From: a virus
Length of the DNA: 25,934 bases
Virus record (IMG/VR): IMGVR_UViG_3300025617_001077
Location: 1-25,934 of that record
Strand: one strand, 5' to 3'
In this document: positions 791 through 19,356 of the stretch, one piece after another
How the letters are laid out: every line of letters begins with the position of its first letter
Numbering within the stretch: position 1 is the first letter of the stretch
Made by a program: the position numbers and the translations under genes
Notes under the pieces: generated by a model
The model's database searches: none
What the model was told of the DNA's origin: nothing
The model's input: the letters and a program-made list of their open reading frames with translations, nothing else

Positions 791-3700
791 ATGGCAAAAC
801 AAGATATTTACTTAGGTGTTGAGGGTAACGACGGTACTGGTGATAGTATTCGCGAATCGTTTCGTAAAGCAAATGAAAACTTTACAGAACTTTATGCTGT
901 CTTTGGACAGGGCGGAACTATTAGTTTTACTGCACTAAATGATACTCCAACAGCAATTACACCTAGCGGATTACTAATTGGTAACACTGCTGGTACAGAA
1001 CTAGTACAAAAGACTCTTACAGCAGGCGATGGTATTAGTATTGACAATTCAAGTGCAAGTAATATTACTATTACTAACACAGGTGCAAATATTAATGCTG
1101 ATACTAGTCCAATTTTAGGTGGACCGCTTAGTGGCAACAGAGTTTATTCCATTGGACTTGTTGCAACATCACCAGAAGCTATTGCAGAATTTAATACTAC
1201 ACACGGTAGTTCAATTACGGTTGACGATCTTGTTACTGATAAAAAATTCCAAGATCAATACTACGCACCAAACGTAACATTTGAACCAAATAAATCTGTG
1301 CTTGCCCGCCAAGAACCTAGTAATGCTAGTGAATACCAAAAAACAATTAGTGAGTATAGAGGCGGAAATCTTGTAATCAACGACCACGGTTTAGACTGGA
1401 GTGCAAACGGAACTAAATGGCGCTATTCAACAACTGGAACGCCTCCATCAGGATTAACAAATAATACAGATTATTTTATCCGTTTTGTAAATGAAGACCA
1501 AGTTAGTATCCATGCAACAAAAGAAGAAGCACAGAATAATAACGATACTTCGAGACAAGCAATTAGTATTGCACTTGGTGTAACTACATCGCCAAATGGT
1601 CAGGACTTTATCAAAGATACTACATACGATGATTCGTTATACGGATTCTATAAGGATGATGAAACACTTCCACGTAAAAATGTAGTTAGACGTCAAGGTG
1701 ATAAAATGGAAGGTGCTCTATACCTTCATGATCATCCAGGTGACTTGTCAGGAACTGATACAGGAAATATCGAAGACTTACAAGCGGCAAGTAAATTATA
1801 TGTAGACAATACATCATATGCCTCAACTGAAGATTTGTTTGTTACTAAGCAAGGTGACGACACACAATCACGTACACCAGTAGGACTTGAAGGACGCGGA
1901 CTAAGTTATGCATACGGCAGTTTGAAAGCCGCATGTTTAAAAGCACAGGAAATTGTAGAAACTGCTCCGATCGAGCCAGGTGCATACAGACAAACAATTA
2001 CGTATGATGACGGTAAAGGAGTAGCCCTAGTAGTTGCAGAAGGAACCACTAATCCAAATTCGTCTGCGCAAAATGCAATTACATACCTAAGAAAAAATAA
2101 ACTATTCATACAAAAAGCAATTCTTGATTATGTTAATGATACATTCCCTAATCTTGCATATCAAGCAACTAATGTTATCAATCCAAGTACTGAAGCAATT
2201 CTTTTCCGTAACAAAGAATTTATTATGGAAGAAGTTAAAGCATGGATTAACCACAACATTGGTTTAGCTACTCCGGGATCATTATGGTATGACTTTAAGT
2301 ACAATAGTGCAAAGTGTAAAAGAGACGTAGGCTATATTGTTGATGCCTGGATTAATGATTTATCTAAAGGCGGCAATATTGAAACACGCAGAGTTGCATC
2401 AAGTTACCTAGCAGGATTAAGAAATGCTGTTGGCAGATCTGACAACGCAGGTAACACACAAGATCAGATTCTTCAAACAAATGCGGCAATTGAATTTGCT
2501 AGAGATCTTGTTAAACAATATGTTCTTACTAATACAGCATATACTCCTAAGCAAGGAACATTTGTTGTTGACGCAAATAACTTATCAGCAACTAGTTTTG
2601 AATTTTATATTGGCTCATCATCAAAAGTACACACATATGTAAACGGTGGATTAGTAAATGGTAACCTAAATGTAAGCAACTTTACATACGACAACGTTAC
2701 TGGTATTGCTACACTAGTAACTACAACTAACCACGGATTTAGTGCAGGCGATGTTGTTTCAATAAGCGGAATTAATATTAGTTGTACAGATGGCAATTTA
2801 GTTTATCCAGAGAGCTTCTTACAAGATACTAATAACGGATATACTGTAGAATCAGGATCTGCAAACAAAGATGTTATTGGAAGAGCTGATGTACTTACAA
2901 AAACAATTACTGACGTAATTTCAAATGGATTAACTGCATTAGCAAATCCAATAGGAACAGAACTACCAGGCACTACATGCGAACGTGACGTTGGATTAAT
3001 GATTGAAGGGATGATTCTTGATATTGGAAATGGAACCAATGCCAATATTAATGCACTACAATCAGCACTAAGATACTTTAATAGTCCATCTGGTGCAAAG
3101 GCAAGAATTACCCAGGGCATTGAAACAAGAGCCGCTATTACAAAATTAAAATCTATTGTAAATCAGGTTATTAGTAATGTTGACTTGCTAACACAATCTA
3201 AGAGATTTGCTGTTACTGCAAACAACTTAGCAACTAACACATTTGAAGTGAACGTTGGTGTGTCAACTGTCGTTCATACATATGTTAGTGGTGGTACTAT
3301 TACATTTGGCGGCCAAACATTTAATGTAAGCAACTTTGCATATAACAATATAACAGGTCGTGCTATTGTTACTACAACTACCGCACACGGATTTAGTTCA
3401 GGCGATGTTGTTGTAATTGAAAACGTTGTATTTGAATGTGCAGGATACGAAGGTACTAAAATTTATCCAACTGATTATACAACATCGGTGCCGCAATGGT
3501 TAAACAGTAATATTAATGATGTTAGTAGTACTGTTAAAGATGCTATTAATACAAAGTTTGATATTATTCTAGATATCTTAACTAATGGATTTATTGCAAA
3601 GGACAATTACACTCCAGTTGAAGGAAGTACATATACTATTGACTTTAGTAATGGTGTAGGCAACGATAGCACTGACCAAGGTATCAATACAAACGTCGAT

Positions 3701-6700
3701 ATCCTTCCAGGAAAAATTATCATTGGTAAGACAACAGGTGCTAGAGGACGTATTGTAAAATATATAAGCGGACTAGATCTAGGCGGCACAGCATATGACA
3801 GAGTTGAAGTTGTACTAATTGAACCAACACTATTTAGAATTGGTGAAGAACTTGAGTACGGCAATCCGACTGCTGAAAAGCAAATTACTATTCATGTTGA
3901 GTCAGGGATTTACTACGAAGACTATCCTATCAAAGTACCTGCTAACGTTTCTATCAAAGGTTCGGACTTTAGACGTTGCCAGATTAGACCTGCGCCTAGG
4001 ATTTCACAATCACCATGGGTGCGTACATATTTCTTTAGAGACAAATTACTAGACAATCTAAAAATTACAGACTGGTACGGTTCTGATATTGCAACTGCAC
4101 AAGAAGTTACAATTACAGGAACAAACGAAGTTGGGGGTATAATTACTGTAACCCCAGCAGATAATATTGCGCCTGTTGCATGGGATGGTGCATGGTTCTA
4201 TACTGATAATGGTGCAGTAGGTTTAATTACTAACGCAGATGGCGGAAGTAGTTTCGATGTTACACTAACAGTTGATATTCTTCCAAACCTAAACAACATT
4301 GCTAGTGGCGCATGGCACATTAAACAAACACCTAATTATGGTTATCACTATCTAACAGATCCAACAGATCCATTAAGTGTTCCAAAAACAAACAACCAAA
4401 TGGATGTGTTCTTGATGAACGATGCTACAAGATTAGCAAACATGTCATTCCAAGGACACGGTGGATTTGCGCAGGTACTTGATCCAGCAGGACAGATTCT
4501 TATTAAATCACCTTATACACAGGTCTGCGGATCTTTCTCAGGAAGTATTAATAAGCAAGCGTTTAGAGGTGGTATGTACATTGACGGATTTGCTGGTAAC
4601 TTGGAAACAGTTATTACTAGTAAAGACGACAACTATACACTTAATGTACAATCAGCACCAGGAACAGGTTTAAGAATTAGAAAACCTCAAACACCTGCTC
4701 CGTTCTTTATTGACGGGGTACGTTATCAAGTTGATGCTGTTTCAGAATATGATGGCGGAACAGGTACAGCAAAACTATTAATTAATAAACTTTCAAATGA
4801 GGGTGCTGGATATTCTAATAGTGTATTCCCTAAAGAGATTTATATTCAAACTGCTGGTAACAGAAGTATGTTGGCAAACGACTATACTCAGGTTAACGAC
4901 CTTGGATATGGATTGTTTGTAAACAACGCCGCACTTTCAGAGCAAGTTTCAACATTTACTTACTACAACCATACAGCGTTCTTTAGTAACAACGGTTCAG
5001 AGATTAGAGCTCTTAACTGTTCTAACGCAAATGGTAACTACGGTCTAGTTGCCGCGGGATCAGATCCAAACGAAACCGTTGACATTGTTACTTCATTACG
5101 TAACATGCAACAGCCTGCTAAGGTATATAATGATCCGACTAACGTATACGGGTTTGGCGAGTTCAACCACAATCAAGGTAACTTTAGTATTTTTGTTTAT
5201 GACTGTGATTATCATCCATATGCAAATAGTGTTGTTGATGTATACACAACAGCAGGTGTTGTTTCATATGAAGTAACTGCGGTTAGTGCAGTTGATGTTC
5301 CAATTAGTAATACTGGCGGATATTCAGGTGCTACAGGTCCAACAGGGCGTAAAGGAGCTAATCAAAAGATCTACAGATTAAGTGTATCAGGAGACACTGG
5401 TTTAGAAGCTGCCATTTTAGGCACACATAATCCAACTCCAGTTAATGATCAATCTGCATACGTTACAATTAGAATGAACAAAAACCATTTGTTCGACGAT
5501 GTTGCAGGCGTAACAAGTATTAGACCTTCAACCGCAGTTATCTTTGAAGAAAATACAGACAGAGTATACAGAAGTATTAGCTTTAACAATCAAGATAGTG
5601 ATAACTCAGCATTACCTGCAGATAGATTCCAAATTGTATTTGATGGTGGCTTCAGTCATGTTAATTTAACAATGCGTGATGCAGAAGCGGCATTGAACAC
5701 GTATGCCGGTGTTGGTACAACAATGGGTGCAACAGCAGGTGACGTTGTACTTGCTATTGAAAAAGTAACAGCCAGCCTACAAGCAAGACTTGCTAACAAC
5801 GATATGATATTTTCCTTCCATGGTAAAACACATATTGTTGCAAACTACACAGATAGAGGCGACTATGCTACTGTAGAATTAAATGATCTGCCTGCAAGTA
5901 ATATTAATAGTTCGAGTAGCTTGTTTAGTTCAGGTGGACTTGCTGACGCTATTGTATTCAGCGGAAACGCAACAAGAACTATTCCTCTTTCATTACAAGA
6001 CGGCGAAAGTGCTAGTATCACAGTTGGTATTTCAACCCTAAGAGCTAACGGACACGACTTTGATAAAATTGGTACAGGTGGATTTAATACTACTAACTAT
6101 CCAAGTATTATCTATGGTGATCCAGTTAAGCCAGCGGCACAAGCAAACGAAGTTAACGAACGTGGCAAGGGGCGTGTGTTCTTTGCAAGTACAGACCAAG
6201 ACGGCTTCTTTAGAATTGGTAAGTTCTTTAGTGTAGACCAAGGTACTGGTACAGTTACATTTGCGGCAAGTATTGCAATTAGTAACTTAGACGGACTAGG
6301 ATTTAAACAAGGTGTTAGAATTACAGAGTTTAGTAATGATGATACAATGTCAGATGCTGATCCAGCGGCTGTTCCAACAGAGTTTGCCGCTGAAGGATTT
6401 ATAACACGTAGATTACACTTTGACAGAACAGGTACTAAACTTGTAACAGGTACAATTGGTGCAGGTGTGTTGGCACGTGACGGTACAACTGAAATGACCG
6501 GCGATATTAACGCTGGCAGCTACAAGTTCTATAATCATGCTGATCCAACAAATTTACAAGATGTTACAACTAAAAGTTATGTCGATGCAAGAACACCATT
6601 TGGTGCAGAAGCAATCGGTGCTAACATTGCTAATAGACAAACTAATGATATACTAGTTTGGAATGGTACAAGTTACGACAACCATACACTTGCTGGAGAC

Positions 6701-7975
6701 ATTAGTATTGGTGTAAGTGGAAATGTTGCAACCGTAGCAATCACTTCAAACAGTATTGTAAACGGTGACATAAACTCTGCCGCAGGTATACTACAAAGTA
6801 AACTTGCAATGAATGCCGCATCAACTAGAGTAGATGCAACTGGCATTACACAGGCTGACTTAGGTCTAGCAAGTTTTGATGCAGGTGACTTCACTGTAAC
6901 AGACGGTTGGGTAACACTAAAAGATAGCTCAGTTGACTTTGCTGATTTGCCAGACGTTGCACAAAATACAGTGTTTGGTAGAACAAATGCAAATGCAGGT
7001 GATGCATCAGCTATTACATTTGCTGATGTTGTGGAAATTGGTGGATCATTTACTACAACAGGTGTTGCAGATAGAATTGTTAAAACAGGAACTGATGGCA
7101 GAATTGATGCGCAATCATACTGGTTAGACAACTACAAGATTCTAGACCAAACATCAAACACGATGACAATGACTACTCCAGGCGGCGCCAAAGTATTTGA
7201 TACTGTTGGTACTGTCCCGAGTAACACTACTACAACTTTCCCTGGAACAATTAAGATTGGTTCTACAAATAGTGTTGCATCGTTCTTCCAGAAAAACAGT
7301 AGTTACGGCGATCCAAGTGATGCTACACAAAACTCACCTGTATTAGCAAGTGACTGGATGTACACATCATTTATTGAAGCACCGGGTGAAAAAGGTGCAT
7401 CGAGTACAGGTATTGCAATTGGAGCTGGTACAGGATTTAGTAGTGCTGGAGAAGTTAGCATTGTTGCAAACAACAACGTTGCTAGTGTAATATTTAAACA
7501 GTCAGCAGTAACACCTAGTTCAAATGGTGGATACGACTTAGGTACTAGCTTATTAAAGTTTGGTACAATCTATGGTACAGCAACAGCGGCACAATATGCT
7601 GACTTGGCTGAAAATTATTTAGGAGATAATAGTTATGAACCTGGTACAGTGCTTGTATTTGGTGGACAGAATGAAGTAACTATAACAGACAAAAAAGGCG
7701 ATAGAAGAGTAGCAGGTGTTGTTAGTACAAATCCTGCACACTTAATGAATGTTGATTTGTTCGGTGACTTTGTAAATGCTGTTGCACTAACAGGCAGAGT
7801 ACCTTGTAAAGTATTAGGACGGGTAGAAAAAGGAGACTTACTAGTCACGAGTGCTATCCCGGGCTACGCTATTGTAGATAACGATCCTAAGATAGGAACT
7901 GTAATAGGAAAGGCGGTGGCCAGTAAAGACACCGATGACCGCGGAACAGTTGAAGTGGTTGTAGGGAGAGTATAA
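791..7975 (+). CDS. Giant tail-fibre/adhesin-type structural protein (2394 aa)
   Basis: Very long, rich in Thr, Asn, Ser and Gly, as phage fibre proteins are. Visible parts in order: an N-terminal module (1-40, NDGTGDSIRESF then NENFTELYA) shared with two later cassette proteins; a fibre motif near 300-340 (GDKMEGALYLHDH, LQAASKLYVDN); a tandem duplication at about 509-937, each copy with CxRDVG and HGFSxGDVV; a segment from about 1031 (HVESGIYYEDYPIKVPANV) resembling the start of a pectate-lyase-like beta-helix; a short GATGPTGRKGA stretch; another EMTGDI...TTKSYVDA motif; and a C-terminal domain from about 2267 (QYADLAENY, RVAGVVSTNPAHLMN, ALTGRVP). That domain resembles C-terminal chaperone or autoprotease domains of phage fibres. 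The start follows the Fe-S carrier gene by 3 bases; the stop overlaps the next ATG (TAATG). Structural role likely; exact position in the virion unknown. Confidence 0.85.
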   Translation: MAKQDIYLGVEGNDGTGDSIRESFRKANENFTELYAVFGQGGTISFTALNDTPTAITPSGLLIGNTAGTELVQKTLTAGDGISIDNSSASNITITNTGANINADTSPILGGPLSGNRVYSIGLVATSPEAIAEFNTTHGSSITVDDLVTDKKFQDQYYAPNVTFEPNKSVLARQEPSNASEYQKTISEYRGGNLVINDHGLDWSANGTKWRYSTTGTPPSGLTNNTDYFIRFVNEDQVSIHATKEEAQNNNDTSRQAISIALGVTTSPNGQDFIKDTTYDDSLYGFYKDDETLPRKNVVRRQGDKMEGALYLHDHPGDLSGTDTGNIEDLQAASKLYVDNTSYASTEDLFVTKQGDDTQSRTPVGLEGRGLSYAYGSLKAACLKAQEIVETAPIEPGAYRQTITYDDGKGVALVVAEGTTNPNSSAQNAITYLRKNKLFIQKAILDYVNDTFPNLAYQATNVINPSTEAILFRNKEFIMEEVKAWINHNIGLATPGSLWYDFKYNSAKCKRDVGYIVDAWINDLSKGGNIETRRVASSYLAGLRNAVGRSDNAGNTQDQILQTNAAIEFARDLVKQYVLTNTAYTPKQGTFVVDANNLSATSFEFYIGSSSKVHTYVNGGLVNGNLNVSNFTYDNVTGIATLVTTTNHGFSAGDVVSISGINISCTDGNLVYPESFLQDTNNGYTVESGSANKDVIGRADVLTKTITDVISNGLTALANPIGTELPGTTCERDVGLMIEGMILDIGNGTNANINALQSALRYFNSPSGAKARITQGIETRAAITKLKSIVNQVISNVDLLTQSKRFAVTANNLATNTFEVNVGVSTVVHTYVSGGTITFGGQTFNVSNFAYNNITGRAIVTTTTAHGFSSGDVVVIENVVFECAGYEGTKIYPTDYTTSVPQWLNSNINDVSSTVKDAINTKFDIILDILTNGFIAKDNYTPVEGSTYTIDFSNGVGNDSTDQGINTNVDILPGKIIIGKTTGARGRIVKYISGLDLGGTAYDRVEVVLIEPTLFRIGEELEYGNPTAEKQITIHVESGIYYEDYPIKVPANVSIKGSDFRRCQIRPAPRISQSPWVRTYFFRDKLLDNLKITDWYGSDIATAQEVTITGTNEVGGIITVTPADNIAPVAWDGAWFYTDNGAVGLITNADGGSSFDVTLTVDILPNLNNIASGAWHIKQTPNYGYHYLTDPTDPLSVPKTNNQMDVFLMNDATRLANMSFQGHGGFAQVLDPAGQILIKSPYTQVCGSFSGSINKQAFRGGMYIDGFAGNLETVITSKDDNYTLNVQSAPGTGLRIRKPQTPAPFFIDGVRYQVDAVSEYDGGTGTAKLLINKLSNEGAGYSNSVFPKEIYIQTAGNRSMLANDYTQVNDLGYGLFVNNAALSEQVSTFTYYNHTAFFSNNGSEIRALNCSNANGNYGLVAAGSDPNETVDIVTSLRNMQQPAKVYNDPTNVYGFGEFNHNQGNFSIFVYDCDYHPYANSVVDVYTTAGVVSYEVTAVSAVDVPISNTGGYSGATGPTGRKGANQKIYRLSVSGDTGLEAAILGTHNPTPVNDQSAYVTIRMNKNHLFDDVAGVTSIRPSTAVIFEENTDRVYRSISFNNQDSDNSALPADRFQIVFDGGFSHVNLTMRDAEAALNTYAGVGTTMGATAGDVVLAIEKVTASLQARLANNDMIFSFHGKTHIVANYTDRGDYATVELNDLPASNINSSSSLFSSGGLADAIVFSGNATRTIPLSLQDGESASITVGISTLRANGHDFDKIGTGGFNTTNYPSIIYGDPVKPAAQANEVNERGKGRVFFASTDQDGFFRIGKFFSVDQGTGTVTFAASIAISNLDGLGFKQGVRITEFSNDDTMSDADPAAVPTEFAAEGFITRRLHFDRTGTKLVTGTIGAGVLARDGTTEMTGDINAGSYKFYNHADPTNLQDVTTKSYVDARTPFGAEAIGANIANRQTNDILVWNGTSYDNHTLAGDISIGVSGNVATVAITSNSIVNGDINSAAGILQSKLAMNAASTRVDATGITQADLGLASFDAGDFTVTDGWVTLKDSSVDFADLPDVAQNTVFGRTNANAGDASAITFADVVEIGGSFTTTGVADRIVKTGTDGRIDAQSYWLDNYKILDQTSNTMTMTTPGGAKVFDTVGTVPSNTTTTFPGTIKIGSTNSVASFFQKNSSYGDPSDATQNSPVLASDWMYTSFIEAPGEKGASSTGIAIGAGTGFSSAGEVSIVANNNVASVIFKQSAVTPSSNGGYDLGTSLLKFGTIYGTATAAQYADLAENYLGDNSYEPGTVLVFGGQNEVTITDKKGDRRVAGVVSTNPAHLMNVDLFGDFVNAVALTGRVPCKVLGRVEKGDLLVTSAIPGYAIVDNDPKIGTVIGKAVASKDTDDRGTVEVVVGRV
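2315..2977 (+). repeat. Intragenic repeat unit 1 in the giant fibre gene
   Basis: First of two tandem units of about 215 residues (residues 509-729). It opens with CKRDVGYIVDAW and contains FVVDANNLSATSF, VSNFTYDNVTGIA and NHGFSAGDVV. It ends with a helical stretch around DVLTKTITDVISNGLTAL. The similarity to unit 2 is clear at protein level and much weaker at DNA level, so the duplication is old. Confidence 0.75.
2978..3601 (+). repeat. Intragenic repeat unit 2 in the giant fibre gene
   Basis: Second copy (residues 730 to about 937), with the same order of landmarks: CERDVGLMIEGM, FAVTANNLATNTF, VSNFAYNNITGRA, AHGFSSGDVV and a closing helical stretch around AINTKFDIILDILTNGF. Landmarks in the two copies lie 215-221 residues apart. 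The right boundary is approximate. Confidence 0.75.
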
Positions 7976-8496
7976 TGGCACAGCAAATTGTAAACATCGG
8001 AACCAGTGCTAACAAGGGCAATGGTGATCCAATCAGAACAGCTTTCACAAAAGTTAACGAAAACTTTACAGAAGTATACGCAAAAATTGTTGCTATCGAA
8101 AATGGAACATTAAACGTAGTAGTTAGTGATGTACGAGGTAGTGTACACGCTGATGATTCAACATTAATGATCGACGGTATTGCCGCACAAATAGTAGGAC
8201 CTGTTAATAATAATAGTGTTACAACTACTACACTTACAGCAACATCTATAATTGGTGATACAACAGGTACACATACTGGATCAGTAGTTGGTAATGTAAC
8301 AGGTAATTTAATAGGTAACAGTACTGGATATCATACTGGTGATGTAACAGGAAGCGTTTTTGCTGATAATAGTACATTACTAGTTGATGCTGTTAATGGA
8401 ACGATCCCAGGGTATATTAGTGTAGTAACACTAAAAGCAGAAGTAGCGGCAAGCATTGATTTTGCTGACTTCCAAACAAGAATAGCGGCATTATAA
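7975..8496 (+). CDS. Small fibre-associated structural protein with GSVxADxSTL repeats
   Basis: This 173-residue protein starts with the shared cassette module (INIG-like opening, GNGDPIRTAF, VNENFTEVYA). It then carries two copies of a motif reading GSVxADxSTLxxDxxxxxIxG, at about residues 55-76 (GSVHADDSTLMIDG) and 127-148 (GSVFADNSTLLVDA). Between them is a Gly/Thr-rich stretch with regularly spaced glycines (THTGSVVGNVTGNLIGNSTG), which suggests a repetitive beta structure. The ATG overlaps the stop of the giant gene by one base (TAATG), so translation is probably coupled and stoichiometry linked. It is likely an accessory or adaptor protein of the tail-fibre complex. No enzymatic motif is visible. 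Confidence 0.75.
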   Translation: MAQQIVNIGTSANKGNGDPIRTAFTKVNENFTEVYAKIVAIENGTLNVVVSDVRGSVHADDSTLMIDGIAAQIVGPVNNNSVTTTTLTATSIIGDTTGTHTGSVVGNVTGNLIGNSTGYHTGDVTGSVFADNSTLLVDAVNGTIPGYISVVTLKAEVAASIDFADFQTRIAAL

Positions 8497-8506
8497 GGAT
8501 AAAGAT

Positions 8507-10363
8507 ATGGCAAACAGAATACCATTAATTGTTGACAGAGACGATCAAAACAAACTTAAAGAACTACCGGTAGGTGATAATTTAAATCTTACAGGAAGTG
8601 GAATAGTTGGTGCGGCAAATATCGAAGCAACTGGACTTACTATTGCTGGTGTTAGTTATAATCCTTTTAGTGGAAGTTATAATGATCTAACAGATAAACC
8701 TAATGTAGCCGCTACTACAACAGACTTACCAGAAGGCACCAATCAATATTTTACTAATGAAAGAGTGGATGACAGAGTTGCCGCTATCCTTGTTGAAGGT
8801 GCTGGCATTGATATTGTTTATAATGATTTAACTGGTAAAATTACAATTACAAATACCGGAGGCGGTGAAGGCGGTGGAAGTAGTATTCCTACAAACTTTA
8901 CTGGATTAGCATCAAACCAAGTAATGAAATACAGCACAGCTGACGAGGCTTGGGTCAATGGAAGTGTAGTTTGGAGTGAAATTGCAAGTAAACCAACATT
9001 TTCATCAGTAGCAACAACAGGTAGTTATAATGATTTGATTAATAAACCAGACCTAGTTAATGATATTAGTGATTTAGCAGATGTTGACACAGTTTCAAGT
9101 GCTCCAACAGCAGGACAAGTATTAAAATGGGATGGTAGCAAATGGGCACCTGCAGATGATATTACATCGGGAGGTGCTGGATTAGATGCTACAACACTAA
9201 ATGGATTTGCAGGATCTTATTACTTAGATTGGAACAACTTTACTAACAAGCCTACGTTATTTAATGGAGAATGGTCCAATCTAGTCGGAACACCTACTAC
9301 ACTATCTGGATACGGTATTACTGATGCAGTTAGTACAACCGGAGACTATACACAAAATGGCAGTGTTACTTTTAATAGTGATACTGGTATTACTGTAGGC
9401 ACAAGCAACAATGTAAAATTGTATGTTAATAATGACGTAATCCTTGCAACAACTGTAAACGAACAAGATTTTGCTATTAAAGTTAAACCACTTTCAGGCG
9501 AAGTTACTGCAATTAAGATTGACACTGGCACACAAAGAATTGGTATTTTTAATACATCACCTACACGTAAGTTAGACGTAACTGGAGATATTGGTGCTAC
9601 AGAATATTATGGTAGTGGTGCTAACTTAACAGGAATTACATTAGGACAAGTTTTAATCGCCGGCTCTGAAACTAGTAATAGTGTTAGCTTTGGTAATGTT
9701 ACACCTTTCACAGCAAACACATACAACTTAGGTGCATCGAATAATCGTTATCAAAATACATATTCAAACTTTTATTATGGCGACGGATCTAATCTAACAG
9801 GACTTAGTGCAGGTATTGTTTCAGGATTGTCAACTGTTGCAACGAGTGGAGCATATGCAGATATATCAGGAACTCCTGTATTAGCAAATATTGCTACATC
9901 AGGATCATACGGAGATTTAGTAGGAACCCCTACACTTCCAACAGCAATTACAGATTTAGGTATTACCGACGGCAGTGTAGGACAAGTGTTAACTACTAAC
10001 GGAGCAGGTGTATTTACATTCCAAGACGCAGGTGATTCAATTGGTAATTTAACTGTAACTAACAGTACAATAACTACAACAGATGCGGCAATTACATTTA
10101 GTGATGATGTAGTGTTTAGTGGAGCAGTGAGTGCAGATAGCTTTACTGGTACGGGTACAGGAACTCCTATCATTGCTAGTTCAGCAAGTATTGAACTACA
10201 GGCTGTTGATGCAGTTAAAGTTACTACTAGCCCATTACGTTTAGCAAGTTTTACAACTACTGCAAGAGATGCACTAACACCAAGTAATGGCGATACAATC
10301 TATAATACTACTACGAATAAATTCCAAGGCTATGCAAATGGCGTTTGGGTAGATCTACATTAA
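8507..10363 (+). CDS. Tail fibre protein with YNDLxxKP repeats
   Basis: This 618-residue protein has several copies of a phage fibre repeat: SYNDLTDKP near 60, EIASKPTF and SYNDLINKP near 160-185, NNFTNKPTLF and SNLVGTPTTLSGYGITDA near 245-275, then AYADISGTP and SYGDLVGTP near 450-475. A second fibre signature, YYGSGANLTGITLG and YYGDGSNLTGLSAG, occurs twice between about 365 and 435. The C-terminus (ARDALTPSNGDTIYNTTTN, then FQGYANGVWVDLH) is a widespread ending of fibre and surface proteins. The N-terminus (KLKELPVGDNLNLTGSGI) differs from the module of its neighbours. AAGGA 7 bases before the ATG supports the start. Host recognition is the probable role. Confidence 0.85.
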   Translation: MANRIPLIVDRDDQNKLKELPVGDNLNLTGSGIVGAANIEATGLTIAGVSYNPFSGSYNDLTDKPNVAATTTDLPEGTNQYFTNERVDDRVAAILVEGAGIDIVYNDLTGKITITNTGGGEGGGSSIPTNFTGLASNQVMKYSTADEAWVNGSVVWSEIASKPTFSSVATTGSYNDLINKPDLVNDISDLADVDTVSSAPTAGQVLKWDGSKWAPADDITSGGAGLDATTLNGFAGSYYLDWNNFTNKPTLFNGEWSNLVGTPTTLSGYGITDAVSTTGDYTQNGSVTFNSDTGITVGTSNNVKLYVNNDVILATTVNEQDFAIKVKPLSGEVTAIKIDTGTQRIGIFNTSPTRKLDVTGDIGATEYYGSGANLTGITLGQVLIAGSETSNSVSFGNVTPFTANTYNLGASNNRYQNTYSNFYYGDGSNLTGLSAGIVSGLSTVATSGAYADISGTPVLANIATSGSYGDLVGTPTLPTAITDLGITDGSVGQVLTTNGAGVFTFQDAGDSIGNLTVTNSTITTTDAAITFSDDVVFSGAVSADSFTGTGTGTPIIASSASIELQAVDAVKVTTSPLRLASFTTTARDALTPSNGDTIYNTTTNKFQGYANGVWVDLH

Positions 10364-10372
10364 GGAGTCGCA

Positions 10373-11947
10373 ATGAGCGAACGCGAATATATTGTTAGCT
10401 TGAACCGAGGTGTTGATTATGATGCATTCTGGGATCAAATAGAAAACGTAAGTGCAGATGATGGATTTGTTCCGACTAGACGAGTAAACATTGAAAATGA
10501 AAGACCTGGAAGTTTGCGTAGTTGTCACTACTTACTTACAGACGATGAAGCAAAAACCCTAAGAGAAGATGCAAGAGTTTATAGTGTAGAAATTCCTCCC
10601 GAACAACGTGACGATATTGAGATCGGATTTACATCGCAAGAAATAGCCAACTTCAATAAAACTGCAATTGATACAGGTAATTATAGAGACTGGGGTAAAA
10701 TACGACATAGTTTTTCAGTACAACCTTATATTGGAGATACTACTAGTAGTAATTTTCCGTATATTTTTGATGGAACAGGCGTAGATGTTGTTATACAAGA
10801 TAGCGGCCTACAAGTTGACCATCCAGAGTTTCTAGATGCTAACGGTGTAAGCAGAGTACAACAGATTGATTGGCCTACTGAAAGTGGGTTGCCTTTTACA
10901 CAAAGCGCAAATCATTATAGAGATTGGGACGGACACGGTACACATGTTGCAGGTACAGCTGGTGGGAAGAATTTTGGGTGGGCCAAAAATGCACGTATAT
11001 ATTCTGTTAAACTAGCTGGACTAGAAGGTCCGGGCGATAGTGGTACCGGTATTAGTACAACATATGCTTTTGATTGTATTAAGTTATGGCATCGCAATAA
11101 ACCAGTTGATCCTGTTACAGGTTATAAGCGACCGACTATTGTAAATATGAGTTGGGGTTATAGTGCAGGATACGGAGACCGTCCAGATGGTGTGAGTGAT
11201 CTTGTTTATCGTGGAACAACTTATAATCTAGGCAACGATACAAACTTTAATAATACTGCACACCGTACTAGTACATATGGATTTTATCCTTATTTTACAA
11301 GTAGTGGTTATCGTTATCCTGTTAGAATTGGTTCTATCGATGCAGATGTACAAGAATTGATCGATGAAGGTATACATGTATGTATTGCCGCAGGAAATAA
11401 TAGTTTTAAAATAGATGTGCCAGGTGGCGACGATTACGATAATATTGTGTTTAGCTCAGGCGGCACAGGATACTATCACAGAGGAAGTTCGCCGTACGAT
11501 GATCAAGCATTTATGGTAGGATGTCTAAGTGCAACTACTGCTTCACCTGAACAAAAAGTTTCTTTTAGTTCAAATGGTCCGGGGGTTGACATTTATGCTG
11601 CCGGACATAATATTATTAGTGCAAGTAGTAATATTAATCGAATCGGCGGCGTAACTTATTTTGATAATCCTAGTTTTAAACAAATTAATATAAGCGGAAC
11701 TAGTATGGCAAGTCCGCAAGTATGCGGTCTAGGAGCAATTTACTTACAAGCAAATCCGGATTGGAGTCCGGCACAGTTGCGTGATCGCTTACATAAAGAC
11801 AGTGTGTCAACACTAGAAGATGGAGGTCTAACAGATTATGCTGATACTTCACAAATTAGTGGAGGCCCTAATAGATTAATGGTAAGTCGTTATGGTGTTG
11901 TGTCACCATTTAATAGTAACTTATATGCTTTGGGCAAAAAGCGGTAA
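10373..11947 (+). CDS. Subtilisin-like serine protease (S8 family) with N-terminal pro-region
   Basis: This 524-residue protein has a complete S8 catalytic set: Asp143 in VVIQDSGLQVDHPEF, His188 in DGHGTHVAG, oxyanion Asn342 in IAAGNNSF and Ser444 in ISGTSMASPQV. Residues 1-85 look like an inhibitor-I9-type pro-region (start REYIVSLNRGVDYDAFW, then YLLTDDEAKTLREDARVYSVE), so the enzyme is probably made as a zymogen. There is no signal peptide, which fits a cytoplasmic or virion-bound phage protein rather than a secreted one. It has AAGGAG 5 bases before the ATG and sits between two structural genes 9 and 20 bases away, so it is made with the fibres. It may process a fibre or adhesin, or act in the virion on host surface proteins. 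Which of these is unknown. Confidence 0.93.
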   Translation: MSEREYIVSLNRGVDYDAFWDQIENVSADDGFVPTRRVNIENERPGSLRSCHYLLTDDEAKTLREDARVYSVEIPPEQRDDIEIGFTSQEIANFNKTAIDTGNYRDWGKIRHSFSVQPYIGDTTSSNFPYIFDGTGVDVVIQDSGLQVDHPEFLDANGVSRVQQIDWPTESGLPFTQSANHYRDWDGHGTHVAGTAGGKNFGWAKNARIYSVKLAGLEGPGDSGTGISTTYAFDCIKLWHRNKPVDPVTGYKRPTIVNMSWGYSAGYGDRPDGVSDLVYRGTTYNLGNDTNFNNTAHRTSTYGFYPYFTSSGYRYPVRIGSIDADVQELIDEGIHVCIAAGNNSFKIDVPGGDDYDNIVFSSGGTGYYHRGSSPYDDQAFMVGCLSATTASPEQKVSFSSNGPGVDIYAAGHNIISASSNINRIGGVTYFDNPSFKQINISGTSMASPQVCGLGAIYLQANPDWSPAQLRDRLHKDSVSTLEDGGLTDYADTSQISGGPNRLMVSRYGVVSPFNSNLYALGKKR

Positions 11948-11950
11948 ATA
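11943..11950 (+). promoter_or_regulatory. Weak late-promoter candidate GGTAAATA
   Basis: This shares the TAAATA core of the late consensus (6 of 8) and overlaps the protease stop codon. It lies 17 bases before the next ATG at 11968, the same geometry as the stronger candidates at 440, 12665 and 15698. Confidence 0.4.
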
Positions 11951-11967
11951 CTGTATAGGAGCAGAAT

Positions 11968-12669
11968 ATGGCAATACAGACAATTAATATTGGAACAATC
12001 GCAAACGACGGAACGGGTGATGATCTTCGTGAAGCGTTTGTAAAAGTTAACAACAACTTTGCAGATCTTAATGCAAGAGATCCAGAGAGAACAACAGCCG
12101 CAAATTTGGGCGCGGCAGGGCAAGGTATTTTTGCACAGTTAAACGGTGCCGAATTACAATTTAAAAAAATTGTTGCAGGATCAGCTATTACACTTGCTTC
12201 TGATGCAAACACTATTACTATTAATTCAACTGCTACTGGATTGCCTAGTATACAAGTTTTTGCAGATAATAACAATACTACTGTTGATGCAAGTGATAAT
12301 ACATTAACTATTGCCGGAGGCAATCTTGTTACTACTAATCTAGTAGGAAATACAATTACTATTGCTTCCGAAACATCTTTAATTACAGATACTAATCCAA
12401 GACTTAGTACTAATTTAGACGGCGCCGGAAATAAAATTTACGGTACAAGTGATATCGAAAGTAACATTTGGGGTATTGACATTCGACAAATGGACGGTAT
12501 ACAACCTTACGTTAATCAACTTGATTTAGGCGAAGCTGTTCCTACATCATTTAGTAATGCTTTAGAATATCTTTCAAGAAACTTAATTATCGAGTTCGAC
12601 GACGGTACTGAAACCTTTACAGGATCAAACGAAATAACAGCAGATATGGGAACACTACCTGTAGCATAA
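11968..12669 (+). CDS. Structural protein with shared N-terminal cassette module
   Basis: This 233-residue protein opens with the clearest copy of the cassette module (TINIGTIANDGTGDDLREAF then KVNNNFADL). Its body is rich in Thr and Asn, with short beta-type repeats such as GSAITLASDANTITINST, DNTLTIAGGNLVTTNLVGNT and ITIASETS. It ends with a more ordinary globular stretch (QLDLGEAVPTSFSNALEYLS). AGGAG lies 6 bases before the ATG. Its place between the protease and the 1000-residue protein indicates a virion part, probably an adaptor or minor tail/fibre component. No catalytic motif is visible and no precise T4 counterpart can be named. Confidence 0.75.
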   Translation: MAIQTINIGTIANDGTGDDLREAFVKVNNNFADLNARDPERTTAANLGAAGQGIFAQLNGAELQFKKIVAGSAITLASDANTITINSTATGLPSIQVFADNNNTTVDASDNTLTIAGGNLVTTNLVGNTITIASETSLITDTNPRLSTNLDGAGNKIYGTSDIESNIWGIDIRQMDGIQPYVNQLDLGEAVPTSFSNALEYLSRNLIIEFDDGTETFTGSNEITADMGTLPVA

Positions 12670-12672
12670 ATA
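12665..12672 (+). promoter_or_regulatory. Late promoter CATAAATA overlapping a stop codon
   Basis: This matches TATAAATA at 7 of 8 positions. The TAA inside it is the stop of the preceding gene. It lies 18 bases before the ATG at 12691 with a GGAG ribosome site in between. Confidence 0.6.
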
Positions 12673-12690
12673 TGTATATAGGAGTAATAC

Positions 12691-15600
12691 ATGGCAAATA
12701 TCCTTTGGACAGTTAGCACTGGACATAATTTAGGAACAATTAATGAGAGTATAGTACAGACAATAAATTTGCCTGTAGACGATACCGTTGACACTATTAA
12801 ATTAATTAGTGGTGACTTGCCGGGTGGTTTAAGAATAGAAAACTTAGCACTATCAGGAACGCCGTTCGAAGTAAAAGAATTAAAAGAATACTCATTTGTC
12901 CTTAGAGCAAAAAAAGGAAATAGAGTAGAAGACATTACTCTAAAAATTACAGTTGACGGTGCTGATGCTCCAATTTGGATTACACCTGAGGGACCATTAC
13001 CTTTAGGACCTAACAGTAAGTTTTATATTTTAGATAGTAGTCCGGTAGACTTTCAATTGCAAGTTATTGATGCTGATTTGCCAGCAGGTGATAACATTGA
13101 ATATATTCTAGAAGATGATGGCGGCGAACTACCGCCCGGAATATCATTAGGTAGAACAACTGGTAAACTTACAGGAATTGTTGAGCCGCTATTGGCTTTA
13201 GAACAAAGAGCTAGTGCAGGATTTTTTGACACTAACTTGTTTGGTTCTTTCCCATACGATTTTGGTATTAAAAGTTTTAATGGATTTGAAAGTTATTATT
13301 ACGATACAACATTTTACGACTATGCTGTTCCTACCCAAAGCCCTAAAAAACTAAACAGAAATTATCAATTTACTGTTTCAGCAAGTGACGGTGTAACTAT
13401 TATTAAACGTAAGTTTCAAATCTACTTAGTCGGCGATGATTTCTTAAGAACAGATAATACAATTATGCAGGTAGCTACTGGATTGTTCACTGCTGATAAT
13501 ACATACTTGAGAGCACCAATTTGGTTAACTCCTAGTGATTTAGGATTTCGTCGTGCTAATAACTATGTAACATTATTTTTAGATGTGTATGATCCAACTA
13601 GTAATCAAGGTATTATTAGTTTTACAGTTAAACCTTCAAACGCAGATGGATCAGCAAGTATATTGCCTCCTGGAATGAACCTTGATAGTATAACCGGTGA
13701 GATCGCAGGGCGTGTTCCATATCAGCCAGCAGTTACAAAAGAATATAAATTTACAATTGAAGCACTAAGGCAACTTGGATCGTCTTCGTCAACATCTACA
13801 CAATTTTTTGCAAACAACTTAGGTAAGAGTCCGTGGACTGCTATTAATCCTCAATTTGAGCCTACTGATTTATTTTATCCTGATGACGAGAAAAACTTTT
13901 CATTCTCAGATTTTGCTGATAGTTATTTTAACACAGGCAACACTGAAACAGGATGGCTAGTGTTTAGTGAAGTTGCACTAACTGAAGAAGATGCAAGTGA
14001 TAACAAAAACTACGTTGCATTAGATATTGTAGATACTAAAGTTTGGGTTATTGAACAAGGTAAAGTCGTTGCTTCTAATAAAGACAGTTCATTAACCAAA
14101 ATTGAAAAAGGTACAACAGATTATAACAGAGGACAGTTTATTGGTACTATTGCTAACGTAGGATATAAAACTTATGACAATAGTGGTGCTGTTACGGCTA
14201 ACAAAGTAGTTACTATTAGTTTTTATAATTATGAAAAGCAAGTAACTTCAGAAGTTAATCCTACTGTTGCTAAAGATAAAGAATTTAGATTAAGATTATT
14301 AGGTGAAGTTGAAAGTGCTATTACATGGAATACCGAAAGTAATTTAGGAAATCTAAGAGCAAACTTTACCTCTACACTAAGAGTAAGTGCAACAAGTAAT
14401 GTTCCTAATGCTGTTGTATTGTATAGTTTAAAGTCGGGTAGATTGCCTCCTGGAGTTACTTTAGCAATCGACGGTCAATTGCAGGGAAAGGTTAGACAGT
14501 TTGGTACTGTAGATCTACCTGGACTAACAACTATTGATAAATCTACACAAACAACTACATTCGATGGTGCAACAACTACATTTGATAGAAGTTATACATT
14601 TACAGTTGAAGCAAGAGATCAATTTAACTTTAGTGCTAGAACACAAGAATTTACTATTACTACAACAGACCCAGACGATATTCTGTACAGTAGTATTACT
14701 ATGATACCGTTGTTACCAAAAGATCAACGAAATACATATCGAAATTTTATATCTGATCCAACAATCTTTACTCCAGGCAGCATTTATAGACCAAACGATC
14801 CAACGTTCGGACTACAGCCAGAAATTAAAGTACTAGCATATGCAGGTATTGAAACTAAAAATATTAGAGAATACGTTGCCGCTATTTCCAAAAACCATAA
14901 AAGAAAAAGTTTTAAACTTGGAAATGTTAATAAAGCAATAGCAAAAAATGTTGGTAGTAATGACACAGTTTATGAAGTGATTTATGTTGACTTAATTGAT
15001 CCATCAGAACCTGTGACAGGAAAAACTGCTACTAGTTTTACAGCGCAATCTAAAAATAAAGTAACAGTAGATAGTATTCAATACGAAGTTACAGATGATA
15101 ATACAGGTGTAGGAACAGGTGAAGGATTCTTTGATATTGAATTACGAGAAGGTACAAGTACATCTCCTGCATCGTCTGGTGTTATTACATTTTATACTAG
15201 ATCTGGACCTGTGTTGTTTACGCCAGGTGGCGGATTTACATGTGTATTGCAAAGCGGGCAAGAAGTTCTTGTAGCTGATATTAATAGCAGTATTAGTTCT
15301 GATCCTTACAGATTTAGACCAATTACTAACACTATTAAAATTGACAGTGATGCTATCAAAGTTAGTGACAGTAATGATCAAACTAGGTATATAAGTAATA
15401 TAACTAATATGAGAGATCGAATTAGAGCCATTGGTAATAATCTAAGAGAGTTTTATCCTTTATGGATGCGTACTCCGCAAAATGTAGGTGAGCCAGAACT
15501 GGGATATAAATTAGCAATTCCGCTATGTTATTGCTTACCTGGAGAAGCAGATAATATTCTTTTAAATATTAAAAACAGTGGGTTTGATTTTAAGAATTTA

Positions 15601-15693
15601 GGTATAGAAATTGAACGTTATAATATTGATAGTACACTGGGCAACAGTAACGAACAATATATTCCGTTCGCAAACTATCAATTCAATGTATAG
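12691..15693 (+). CDS. Large structural protein with Ig/cadherin-like (He_PIG-type) repeats
   Basis: This 1000-residue protein has repeated LPPGhxL...GxhxG motifs typical of putative-Ig/cadherin-like domains: GDLPGGLRIENLALSGTP (about 40-60), GELPPGISLGRTTGKLTG (about 145-165), ILPPGMNLDSITGEIAG (about 323-340) and RLPPGVTLAIDGQLQGK (about 582-600). They are followed by strands such as EYKFTIEA and SYTFTVEARD. Such domains form elongated stalks that bind sugars or proteins on cell surfaces. The last 330 residues (from about SSITMIPLLPKDQR) form a different domain ending in MRTPQNVGEPELGYKLAIP. A GGAG site precedes the ATG. It has its own late promoter candidate at 12665. Probably a tail or fibre-associated adhesin; exact location in the virion is not known. 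Confidence 0.8.
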   Translation: MANILWTVSTGHNLGTINESIVQTINLPVDDTVDTIKLISGDLPGGLRIENLALSGTPFEVKELKEYSFVLRAKKGNRVEDITLKITVDGADAPIWITPEGPLPLGPNSKFYILDSSPVDFQLQVIDADLPAGDNIEYILEDDGGELPPGISLGRTTGKLTGIVEPLLALEQRASAGFFDTNLFGSFPYDFGIKSFNGFESYYYDTTFYDYAVPTQSPKKLNRNYQFTVSASDGVTIIKRKFQIYLVGDDFLRTDNTIMQVATGLFTADNTYLRAPIWLTPSDLGFRRANNYVTLFLDVYDPTSNQGIISFTVKPSNADGSASILPPGMNLDSITGEIAGRVPYQPAVTKEYKFTIEALRQLGSSSSTSTQFFANNLGKSPWTAINPQFEPTDLFYPDDEKNFSFSDFADSYFNTGNTETGWLVFSEVALTEEDASDNKNYVALDIVDTKVWVIEQGKVVASNKDSSLTKIEKGTTDYNRGQFIGTIANVGYKTYDNSGAVTANKVVTISFYNYEKQVTSEVNPTVAKDKEFRLRLLGEVESAITWNTESNLGNLRANFTSTLRVSATSNVPNAVVLYSLKSGRLPPGVTLAIDGQLQGKVRQFGTVDLPGLTTIDKSTQTTTFDGATTTFDRSYTFTVEARDQFNFSARTQEFTITTTDPDDILYSSITMIPLLPKDQRNTYRNFISDPTIFTPGSIYRPNDPTFGLQPEIKVLAYAGIETKNIREYVAAISKNHKRKSFKLGNVNKAIAKNVGSNDTVYEVIYVDLIDPSEPVTGKTATSFTAQSKNKVTVDSIQYEVTDDNTGVGTGEGFFDIELREGTSTSPASSGVITFYTRSGPVLFTPGGGFTCVLQSGQEVLVADINSSISSDPYRFRPITNTIKIDSDAIKVSDSNDQTRYISNITNMRDRIRAIGNNLREFYPLWMRTPQNVGEPELGYKLAIPLCYCLPGEADNILLNIKNSGFDFKNLGIEIERYNIDSTLGNSNEQYIPFANYQFNV

Positions 15694-15712
15694 TACTGAT
15701 AAATAACAGTAC
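15693..15712 (+). promoter_or_regulatory. Late promoter GATAAATA inside a perfect inverted repeat
   Basis: GATAAATA (15698-15705) matches the late consensus at 7 of 8 and lies 22 bases before the ATG at 15728. The AT core ATAAATAA is flanked by GTACTG on the left and CAGTAC on the right, a perfect 6-base inverted repeat. It fills the short space after the 1000-residue gene. Confidence 0.55.
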
Positions 15713-15727
15713 ACGAGAGGATTAAAA

Positions 15728-16324
15728 ATGGCAAGTAATATTAATGACACCGGTGTAAATCAGAACTACCCAGTAGCAGGTGTAGACAATGATTCGCAGG
15801 GATTTAGAGATAATTTTTCAGTTATCAGAAGCAACTTTGTAGCGGCGAAAGCTGAAATTCAAGCACTGCAAAATACAACTGCACAAGGAGTTACATATAA
15901 CTCTGAAACAGGAACTAACGATTTTTTAAATAGTACAGTAACAGGTGTAAATCTTATTAATAGTACTGAGCAGTCTTATTCAGCGCCAGGTACAGTTACT
16001 TCTAGTCAAAACGTTAACCTAAGTAGCGGATTTTATCAGTCTTTCACAGTTGGTGCAGATATTACATTTAACTTAACTGAATGGAATACAGACGCTGGCA
16101 AAACAGGTAGAGTAAGAATATACATAAAAAATGATTCAGTGCAAAGAACTATTACATTCCAATCAAATGAAAACGCTGGTACAATTAAAAGAGGTCCAAG
16201 TTGGCCTACAGCAGATAATACTGCCGTAATTGATGTACCTAATACTAAAACATTCGTCTTTGAATTTGTTAGTTTCGATTCAGGCGCAACTGTATATGCT
16301 GAGTACCTTGGTGTATTCCAATAA
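15728..16324 (+). CDS. Small structural protein at the end of the fibre cassette
   Basis: This 198-residue protein has an N-terminus (NINDTGVNQNYPVAGVDNDS, then GFRDNFSVIRSNFVAAKAEI) that resembles a diverged form of the cassette module: Asn/Gly-rich start, a GFRDNF segment and an NF-containing helix. The rest is predicted beta-rich, with a jelly-roll-like alternation (GFYQSFTVGADITFNLTEW, GRVRIYIKNDS, TFVFEFVSFDSGATVYAEY). It carries its own late promoter candidate upstream. GAGAGG 7-8 bases before the ATG is a reasonable ribosome site. A virion role is likely from position and composition. No T4 counterpart can be named from sequence alone. Confidence 0.7.
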   Translation: MASNINDTGVNQNYPVAGVDNDSQGFRDNFSVIRSNFVAAKAEIQALQNTTAQGVTYNSETGTNDFLNSTVTGVNLINSTEQSYSAPGTVTSSQNVNLSSGFYQSFTVGADITFNLTEWNTDAGKTGRVRIYIKNDSVQRTITFQSNENAGTIKRGPSWPTADNTAVIDVPNTKTFVFEFVSFDSGATVYAEYLGVFQ

Positions 16325-16327
16325 AAA

Positions 16328-16567
16328 ATGTTACATCCGTTTAGCGAAGACACAAAAAATTTAACAGTTCAGCAGTGTTATGATAAAATTGCTGAACTAA
16401 CAAACAAATATTTTTCTACACAGAATCCTCAACTACGTGAACAAATTTCTACATTTATAGAATATTACAAGCAAGAAGCTATTACCAAAGAAGCACAATT
16501 ACGAATTGAGCAACAAAATCAAGATAATGGCAATTTAGATCTTGACAGTTTGATTAATATCAGTTAA
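16328..16567 (+). CDS. Small coiled-coil-type protein, function unknown
   Basis: This 79-residue hydrophilic protein is predicted mostly helical (TVQQCYDKIAELTNKYF, then QLREQISTFIEYYKQEA, then a Gln/Glu-rich stretch) and ends in a short acidic-hydrophobic tail, LDLDSLINIS. It starts 3 bases after the fibre cassette with no obvious Shine-Dalgarno, which suggests coupled translation. Small helical proteins with an acidic-hydrophobic C-terminal tail include sliding-clamp-binding factors such as gp33 and gp55 of T4-like phages, but the similarity here is too slight to assign that role. Recorded as a real gene of unknown function because it fits the tiling of the operon. Confidence 0.65.
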   Translation: MLHPFSEDTKNLTVQQCYDKIAELTNKYFSTQNPQLREQISTFIEYYKQEAITKEAQLRIEQQNQDNGNLDLDSLINIS

Positions 16568-16576
16568 ACTGTATAT

Positions 16577-17098
16577 ATGATTATGAAAACAGACTCTCTA
16601 GGAATACCACGATTTACTAATCGCGATCTTGTCGATATGATTTATTCAGGTCATGCGGATAAGGTACACGTTGTACTATGTGATCCAAGTGATGACGTAG
16701 ACCGTTTTAATGCGGCTATGGAAGAACAAGGATTTGACAAGCTACAAAAGTATATTCCATTAGATGTAGATCAAAAGACTTTTGACGGTGTATGTCAAGG
16801 TGAATGGTTTATGCCTGATGAGTATAAGACACTAAACGTACACAACTATATTCTAACAAAATGCAACACACAAGAAGAAACAGCAAGATGTGCTGAAGAA
16901 CTTGCTGAGTTTGAAGGCAGAGGTATGATGCCTTTACTACAGTATATGGTTTATCTTGTAGACTTTATGCGAGAGAATGATATTGTATGGGGTGTAGGAC
17001 GTGGATCTAGTGTTGCTAGTTATGTGCTGTATTTGATAGGCGTACATCGTATAGACTCAATCCAATATGACCTAGACTGGCGAGAGTTCCTTAGATAA
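16577..17098 (+). CDS. Stand-alone fragment related to bacterial DNA polymerase III alpha subunit, without catalytic centre
   Basis: This 173-residue protein ends in a segment strongly resembling the start of the palm of DnaE-type polymerases: EFEGRGMMPLLQYMVYLVDF, then GVGRGSSVASYVLYLIGVHR and YDLDWREFLR. It aligns with the DnaE pattern of a YFLIV-type helix, GPGRGSxAGSLVAYxLGIT and DPLxYDLLFERFLNPER. The protein stops exactly where DnaE would continue into its catalytic Asp motif (PDxDxD), so it cannot polymerise DNA alone. The first 80 residues (RFTNRDLVDMIYSGH, EWFMPDEYKTL) are not recognised. The start is uncertain: ATG 16577 or in-frame ATG 16583, neither with a good ribosome site. It may be a structural or regulatory relic, or bind nucleotides or a partner. 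The homology is visible; the function is unknown. Confidence 0.75.
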   Translation: MIMKTDSLGIPRFTNRDLVDMIYSGHADKVHVVLCDPSDDVDRFNAAMEEQGFDKLQKYIPLDVDQKTFDGVCQGEWFMPDEYKTLNVHNYILTKCNTQEETARCAEELAEFEGRGMMPLLQYMVYLVDFMRENDIVWGVGRGSSVASYVLYLIGVHRIDSIQYDLDWREFLR

Positions 17099-17134
17099 GT
17101 ACAATATAACGAAACCTTTAACAGGAGAAATAAA

Positions 17135-17530
17135 ATGGCAGTACAACAAAAAGGTCGTAAGCAATACAGAACAATGACAGGTAAAGTTATTGATATGGAT
17201 CTGCTTAGACAAAGAAATGAACTTACACCGGCAGTAGGAAATGCTCGTGTAAATGCACGTGGAGACGAATTAGGTCCAGGTGGAAAAATTATTAAAAAGC
17301 GTGAAGAACTACTTCGAGATTATTATGCAGAGAATATTGAACCTACCGAGTTCGAACAGCCAGCACCAAAAGCAAAAGTTGAAGAACCAGTAGAGGCACA
17401 AGATTCTGTAGAAGTAGAGCAACCCGTAAGTAGAAGTACACGAGCTCAACCAGGAAAAACCAAAGCCGAATCAAAAACTCAAGACGATTGGGTTGAAGAT
17501 GATGATGGCAACTTTGTACCAAAAGGATAA
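17135..17530 (+). CDS. Conserved-looking acidic-tailed protein, function unknown
   Basis: This 131-residue protein has an ordered, basic N-terminal half (GRKQYRTMTGKVIDMDLLRQ, NELTPAVGNARVNARGDELG, GGKIIKKREELLRDYY). The C-terminal half is low-complexity and disordered, rich in Pro, Glu, Val and Lys (PAPKAKVEEPVEAQDSVEV), ending DDWVEDDDGNFVPKG. AGGAG lies 7 bases before the ATG. It sits 8 bases ahead of the GroES-like gene, which suggests a shared late role in virion assembly; a small structural or scaffold-type protein would fit. No known domain is recognised, so function is left open. Confidence 0.7.
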   Translation: MAVQQKGRKQYRTMTGKVIDMDLLRQRNELTPAVGNARVNARGDELGPGGKIIKKREELLRDYYAENIEPTEFEQPAPKAKVEEPVEAQDSVEVEQPVSRSTRAQPGKTKAESKTQDDWVEDDDGNFVPKG

Positions 17531-17538
17531 AAAGCACA

Positions 17539-17991: not shown

Positions 17992-17993
17992 AA

Positions 17994-18552: not shown

Positions 18553-18557
18553 ATTTA

Positions 18558-19167: not shown

Positions 19168-19190
19168 TTATAAAAATTAGGAGTATGATA

Positions 19191-19355: not shown

Positions 19356-19356
19356 C

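Follow-up and report, generated by a model that had tools for sequence, protein, structure and literature searches.

Proteolytic maturation is in use in T4-type phages, where it is carried out by a protease family other than the subtilases, and Ig-like domains are promiscuous in the structural proteins of phages. Subtilisin-like (S8) peptidases have been recorded in marine cyanophages. For example, the P-SSM2 protein PSSM2_297 (T4-GC 292), for which the depositors noted PF00082, is encoded beside tail-fibre genes, and the available passages of PMC3037559 mention that P-HM1 and P-HM2 have an S8 peptidase (T4-GC518), without a tested function. A literature search covering titles, the beginnings of abstracts and passages found no paper about this phage protease or about the inserted domain described below. 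Here, we describe a protease gene in a 25,934-nucleotide stretch of viral DNA (IMG/VR record IMGVR_UViG_3300025617_001077; hereafter the window). By its sequence, the product is an intact subtilase of the proteinase K type that is probably active and belongs to the cassette of tail-fibre and baseplate genes in a large marine phage related to T4. As a whole, the evidence moderately favours a probably active fibre or baseplate subtilase that cuts the host surface and is a recurrent acceptor of a promiscuous domain, itself predicted to be zincin-like.

The protease is read from a single unbroken frame with an ATG start (Table 1). Peptidase_S8 is the sole Pfam match (residues 134-476) in the 524-aa product, and PHROG 9158, a family of unknown function, gives a whole-length profile match (residues 2-484), followed by PHROG 3677 (protease; E 2.9e-36). 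Together with the S8 profile, an Asp/His/Ser triad set in subtilase motifs places the protein in family S8, and the conservation of these residues was assessed in a 101-row alignment of the window protease (P0001) with 100 IMG/VR relatives, near-duplicates counted in. The AlphaFold2 model (mean pLDDT 91.2) has a subtilisin/proteinase K fold, in which the residues from ~84-93 to 507-514 superpose on proteinase K/aqualysin type enzymes (VIA Z up to 38.1; 265-276 residues). Compared with the relative in the IMG/VR record L001, dN/dS (NG86) was ~0.14 for residues 1-153 and ~0.07 for residues 161-524, values low enough that the frame is not a chance ORF; judged from its sequence, the product is an intact enzyme under strong purifying selection and is very likely to be an active subtilase.

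The original prediction, an intact subtilisin-like protease with all catalytic residues, no signal peptide and an I9-like pro-region, stands in its first two parts, given the Pfam S8 match, the residue conservation among relatives and an N-terminus (MSEREYIVSLNRGVDYDAFWDQ) that, read directly, has no hydrophobic signal segment. For the third part, the predicted order of the fold fits. Subtilase pro-domains follow a beta-alpha-beta-beta-alpha-beta order, and the same order is predicted for residues 4-73 in the AlphaFold2 model, but none of 75 aligned relatives matched the Pfam Inhibitor_I9 profile at E 0.05, with the region searched within whole proteins; as used here, 'I9-like' describes only the predicted order of the fold. 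The protease would fold with the aid of this N-terminal pro-domain. Also as predicted, the gene lies between fibre genes with spacings of 9 and 20 bases, the upstream ORF ending at 10363 and the downstream ORF starting at 11968, and AAGGAG occurs just before the protease start (10362-10367). An IscA/HesB-type Fe-S biosynthesis protein (464-787) is encoded immediately 5' of the tail fibre gene.

Table 1 Features of the protease and its cassette, in window positions.
Feature	Positions	Strand	Basis
Tail fibre protein, 2394 aa, gp9/gp10-like N-terminal motif	791..7975	+	PHROG 9851 tail fiber E 5.5e-48; motif
Baseplate/fibre-connector-like protein, 173 aa	7975..8496	+	PHROG 677 E 3.6e-9; motif
618-aa protein directly upstream of protease, probably fibre	8507..10363	+	PHROG 9627 and 17509 (unknown function), E ~1e-10; cassette position
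Subtilase (S8, proteinase-K type), 524 aa	10373..11947	+	Pfam S8 E 1.4e-32; PHROG 9158 E 1.3e-85; AF2 pLDDT 91.2; VIA Z 36-38 vs proteinase K/aqualysin type enzymes
Pro-domain-like N-terminal region, residues 1-85	10373..10627	+	beta-alpha-beta-beta-alpha-beta in model; alignment to mature enzymes begins at model residue 84-93 (top rows)
Catalytic Asp143	10799..10801	+	Kept in 101/101 aligned rows
Empty landing site, residues 154-160 (LDANGVS), swapped for 318-aa domain in L001 and L002	10832..10852	+	blastn flanks; junctions
Catalytic His188	10934..10936	+	Kept in 101/101 aligned rows
Oxyanion Asn342	11396..11398	+	100/101 aligned rows; remaining row a gap
Second landing region (residues 374-390), occupied in L021 by same domain	11492..11542	+	tblastn pieces 3-374 and 390-501, in-frame insert between
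Catalytic Ser444	11702..11704	+	100/101 aligned rows; remaining row a gap
gp9/gp10-like protein, 233 aa	11968..12669	+	PF07880 E 9.6e-6; PHROG 677 E 4.6e-12
1000-aa protein with Ig-like (He_PIG) domains	12691..15693	+	PF05345 E 7.1e-15

Relatives of the protease were found by tblastn in 40 of 50,697 phage records, every one below 60% identity; these comprise 37 named Synechococcus/Prochlorococcus phages and three marine single-cell virus records. A profile scan of IMG/VR confirmed at least 497 protease stretches among the 600 candidates listed. The genomic setting of these relatives resembles that of P-SSM2: the gene in S-H38 and S-CREM1 is flanked by an annotated baseplate wedge/tail pin and by a wedge initiator or hypothetical gene, while in S-WAM2, S-RSM4, S-SCSM1, Sf-FR1, S-T4 and ACG-2014h it adjoins fibre, tail, structural or large unannotated genes. 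Likewise, an ORF with the gp9/gp10-like N-terminal motif lies no more than 6 kb away in 54 of 103 IMG/VR protease loci, the motif occurring in 77 of the 778 ORFs with 100 or more aa in the whole set and in none of 778 shuffled N-termini. The expectation that such a protease would be unusual for T4-type phages therefore fails for marine phages, since relatives recur in these 40 records, nearly all from cyanophages, are annotated there, and lie in fibre/baseplate cassettes in the cultured phages examined. The window protease adds one more member to a phage S8 family that is already known but functionally unstudied.

The location of the enzyme can be judged from these relatives. The S-SCSM1 homologue gp144 (1411 aa; ~31% identical to the window protease) consists of an S8 domain followed by lectin-like Laminin_G_3 domains and carries the record note 'baseplate wedge subunit (virion protein)'. 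The same record holds 33 '(virion protein)' notes and 14 'virion protein' products, so that the tag, with 47 proteins against the 45 detected by mass spectrometry in the S-SCSM1 virion according to the available passages of PMC9602691, tracks the proteome closely, not exactly; as gp144 is a fusion, its peptides could stem from the non-S8 domains. Extensions of more than ~100 aa beyond the C-terminal end of the S8 domain were present in 19 of the 97 complete ORFs from the 103 loci and in a few cases consist of the inserted domain family; five extended proteases that were scanned had, besides S8, lectin-like, Gly-rich, Reeler or merely weak matches. Because the S-SCSM1 relative is tagged as a virion protein, the window protease is, by analogy, likely to be virion-borne. 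The earlier suggestion of a late, possibly virion-borne enzyme gains from the cassettes of cultured phages and from the S-SCSM1 tag. S-CREM1 counts against it, as the available passages on its virion, a set of 14 proteins, do not name the peptidase among them. Such an enzyme would be made late, together with the fibres, would be mounted on the baseplate or the fibre periphery, and may cut a host surface protein on contact, although for action on the host surface itself the chances appear evenly balanced.

The main rival to a mounted, surface-acting enzyme is an assembly protease that trims adjacent fibre or baseplate proteins as they mature and is dispensable at host contact. A location among fibre genes, seen both here and in cultured relatives, would suit this role, as would the maturation of T4-type phages by proteolysis, though via another family; however, in-frame fusion of relatives to large lectin-like or structural proteins, one of them virion-tagged, fits a mounted enzyme better while being compatible with processing, and we consider an assembly role possible but a distinctly minority prospect. 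A second alternative, an enzyme that works inside the infected cell on proteins of the host and has a neighbourhood that signifies late expression only, would account for the absent signal peptide, but phage structural proteins are not known to carry signal peptides either, and the lectin-like fusions and virion tag of the relatives point to the particle, making this reading improbable. Still less credible is a dead S8 scaffold that serves as a fibre building block: an insertion of 300 aa is tolerated close to the catalytic Asp, but Asp and His are retained in 101/101 rows and Ser in 100/101, and purifying selection is strong.

In related phages, this protease also accepts an extra domain. L001 and L002, the closest relatives in IMG/VR, keep the same gene order as the window, and by blastn window positions 3788-10831 correspond to L001 3-7046 at 86% identity and 10853-19363 to L001 8001-16512 at 90%. 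Between these blocks, the window has 21 bases and L001 has 954 (7047-8000), which encode an in-frame domain of 318 aa; the window is the empty allele of one landing site. The same junction occurs in the metagenome records L001, L002, L017 and L018, and its far end also in L003. In another record, L021, the protease is ~40-45% identical to that of the window and the domain (9252-10184) sits at a different position (Table 1), with 90% aa identity to the L001 copy and 88.6% DNA identity over 921 ungapped bases; a further copy lies at 5001-5939 of L036. In S8 profile coordinates (P0001 numbering), the S8 hosts carry the domain at about six positions, roughly 113-128, 154-160, 166-186, 358-372 and 374-390 and at the C-terminus. 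The linkers of L001 are shared by L038 and L059, but there the domain is far more alike than the protease around it. A second filled and empty pair is provided by S-RIM2, in which the host protein of the domain sits between gp9 and gp8, and S-SM1, in whose homologue both flanks are retained (64% and 72%) with the domain absent. Sharp junctions within conserved genes might suggest an intein, intron or chimaeric assembly instead of a mobile domain, but this is barely worth entertaining: a group I intron is ruled out by the reading frame, continuous across the insert, and by 0 Rfam matches in the six sources searched, an intein by copies that terminate their protein (L036, L066, L101) and so have no C-extein to join, and a chimaera by the recurrence of one junction in several IMG/VR metagenome records and by 85 records of cultured phages that contain the domain.

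These 85 records, among the 50,697 searched, carry the domain at 80-95% identity and in one place each, with no further copies even at E 10, while in IMG/VR 150 domain stretches were confirmed, and 218 with a profile. Sequence searches of Pfam (best E 0.16), PHROGs and PDB gave no match to it. An S8 domain was detectable in the host protein for 30 of the best 80 of the 150 domain loci, the remainder being mainly long fibre-like proteins; as the 80 are those nearest the L001 copy, with near-duplicate contigs in, this is not a random sample. Among the non-S8 hosts, 46 N-terminal flanks of at least 40 aa form 12 similarity groups, one of which, L077, resembles a cut S8 host. In L108, the domain occurs almost by itself. 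The domain was present in 16 of 19 records searched, in 15 as a single match and in one with a second, partial match at the contig end. In related phages, the protease has thus repeatedly taken up, in frame, a discrete and promiscuous domain of ~310 aa, usually with one copy per record, and this domain fills several protease loops and ends as well as several unrelated fibre proteins.

Sequence divergence of the domain is uncoupled from that of its hosts. For example, the L001 and L036 copies share 96% of amino acids and 96% of fourfold sites, against 37% and 49% in the S8 core; the corresponding values are 90% and 80% against 45% and 39% for L001 and L021, and 89% and 68% against 46% and 41% in the host for L001 and L066. 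There are exceptions: plain vertical descent fits L164 and L170 (domain 84%, S8 84%), and in the same-site pair L001 and L164 the domain is more divergent than the host (48% versus 58%). By these comparisons, the domain is usually far more alike than the S8 proteins that carry it. The clamp loader, held by 12 of the 24 records compared, gives the same contrast between lineages: that of the window shares 83-98% identity with those in the L001, L164, L021, L059, L038 and L036 records but only 34-35% with those of S-RIM12, S-RIM2, P-SSM2 and S-H38, whereas the L001 domain is 88-91% identical to the S-RIM12 and S-RIM2 copies, indicating that the domain has crossed phage lineages. In a 63-row domain tree with 18 host-context labels, 28 context changes were counted, between the minimum of 17 and the shuffled mean of 46.4; contexts persist by inheritance for some time and often change. 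The L001 copy, with flanks that align collinearly to those of the window, had no mobility gene beside it. In L039, the N-terminal flank groups with L048 and L062 and the C-terminal flank with L037 and L050, as if crossing-over had occurred inside the conserved domain and fibres were recombined there into mosaics. Separately, the domain's own start motif (DPEYNNG) follows the domain end in L096 and L110, as in a tandem or permuted copy, which is possibly a trace of the mode of insertion.

Outside phages, the domain occurs in 12 marine bacterial contigs (Verrucomicrobiota, Actinomycetota and Flavobacteriaceae; 43-68% identity), where it is mostly preceded by an N-terminal segment that, read by eye, resembles a signal or lipoprotein sequence. 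In one bacterial protein (L204), the N-terminal half (residues 20-300) resembles a remote paralogue of the domain in which EExxH replaces EHxxH; its hhalign match to the domain is weak (probability 3.4%, E 0.013) and collinear, and this half was found in one of seven bacterial genomes, its own, and in no phage record. The AlphaFold2 model of the domain (49 rows) has a pLDDT of 79.1 and a pTM of 0.82. Foldseek searches of PDB and BFVD with this model gave no match at E 0.001, the best being M30 lugdulysin at E 0.3, and in a structural second look (VIA) most top rows were zinc metallopeptidases (M34, M9, M30 and M1 type folds), at Z values up to 6.8 that lie within the range of unrelated or chance matches. 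Six residues, E158, H159, H162, T163, E227 and Y228, are invariant in 65/65 copies, phage and 10 bacterial, all of which read E158-H159-x-x-H162 and not the HExxH motif. Gluzincins carry their metal ligands on two helices, and in the model the invariant residues map to two helices that match these. We offer as a hypothesis, without assigning the domain to the zincins, that it may be a zincin-like module of noncanonical type that binds metal and possibly acts as a peptidase, in which case the cassette would exchange surface-acting modules. A further proposal is that a single domain here behaves as a mobile element that is not autonomous, a metal-dependent EHxxH...E peptidase of noncanonical kind swapped as a discrete in-frame unit, usually one per genome, between fibre sites and, most conspicuously, into a virion-borne subtilase, protease nested in protease, to digest host surface proteins and shift host range; in this full form, the proposal is tentative and rather unlikely.

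Among other genes of the window, the clamp loader (19899-20816) has its best match in Pseudomonas PA5oct-type jumbo phages (55.6%) against 34-35% to four cyanophages, which leaves a cyanophage origin for the window unsupported and suggests that the host may be a heterotroph. The photosystem family PF00124 was found in 0 of 12 large related records, a weak absence given that these records are fragments. A 173-aa ORF (16577-17098) matches a piece of the DNA polymerase III alpha profile (positions 16-94 of 260) and PHROG 11127 DNA polymerase and may represent a split polymerase. The window also encodes a GroES-like co-chaperonin (17539-17991; Cpn10, E 2.9e-5), a parvulin-type prolyl isomerase (21664-21984; Rotamase, E 1.7e-14) and a serine hydroxymethyltransferase (23874-25013; E 2.5e-148) with 44% G+C against 38% for the window, preceded by an ORF (22989-23864) whose product resembles a thymidylate synthase.

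The relatives are more informative than the protease itself, as they reveal one conserved domain, without a database family, moving in frame between enzymes and fibres across distant phage lineages. The exchange of an extra domain into surface loops of the protease fits a surface-acting module under changing selection, and the natural filled and empty pairs (the window and L001; S-RIM2 and S-SM1) make the gain or swap of such modules directly testable. If the nested-protease proposal is true, the window captures one landing site of a mobile peptidase domain while still or again unoccupied.

Compared with known systems, the window protease is closest in kind to the cyanophage fibre-cassette S8 peptidase (P-SSM2 PSSM2_297; PHROG 9158), a whole-length relative with the same catalytic layout and type of neighbourhood, but is only ~29-36% identical to it, in a genome whose clamp loader, at 34-35%, is similarly far from the cyanophages. 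It shares its fold and catalytic layout with the proteinase K/aqualysin subfamily of S8, although it has no signal peptide and belongs to a phage structural cassette rather than being secreted. S-SCSM1 gp144 likewise places an S8 domain within a fibre cassette, fused there to lectin-like domains, whereas the window protease stands alone. For the inserted domain, the zincin metallopeptidases (M9, M30, M34 and M1 folds) gave the best second-look rows and similarly have a downstream Glu on a second helix, but the domain reads EHxxH and the structural similarity is not significant. In its movements, the domain recalls the promiscuous Ig-like domains, which likewise place one family in many structural proteins and have apparently moved between them; it differs in its ~310-aa size, mixed alpha/beta structure, usually single copy, position inside an enzyme and invariant E/H residues. 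The relocated domain is thus new, but of the same general kind as the known promiscuous domains of phage structural proteins.
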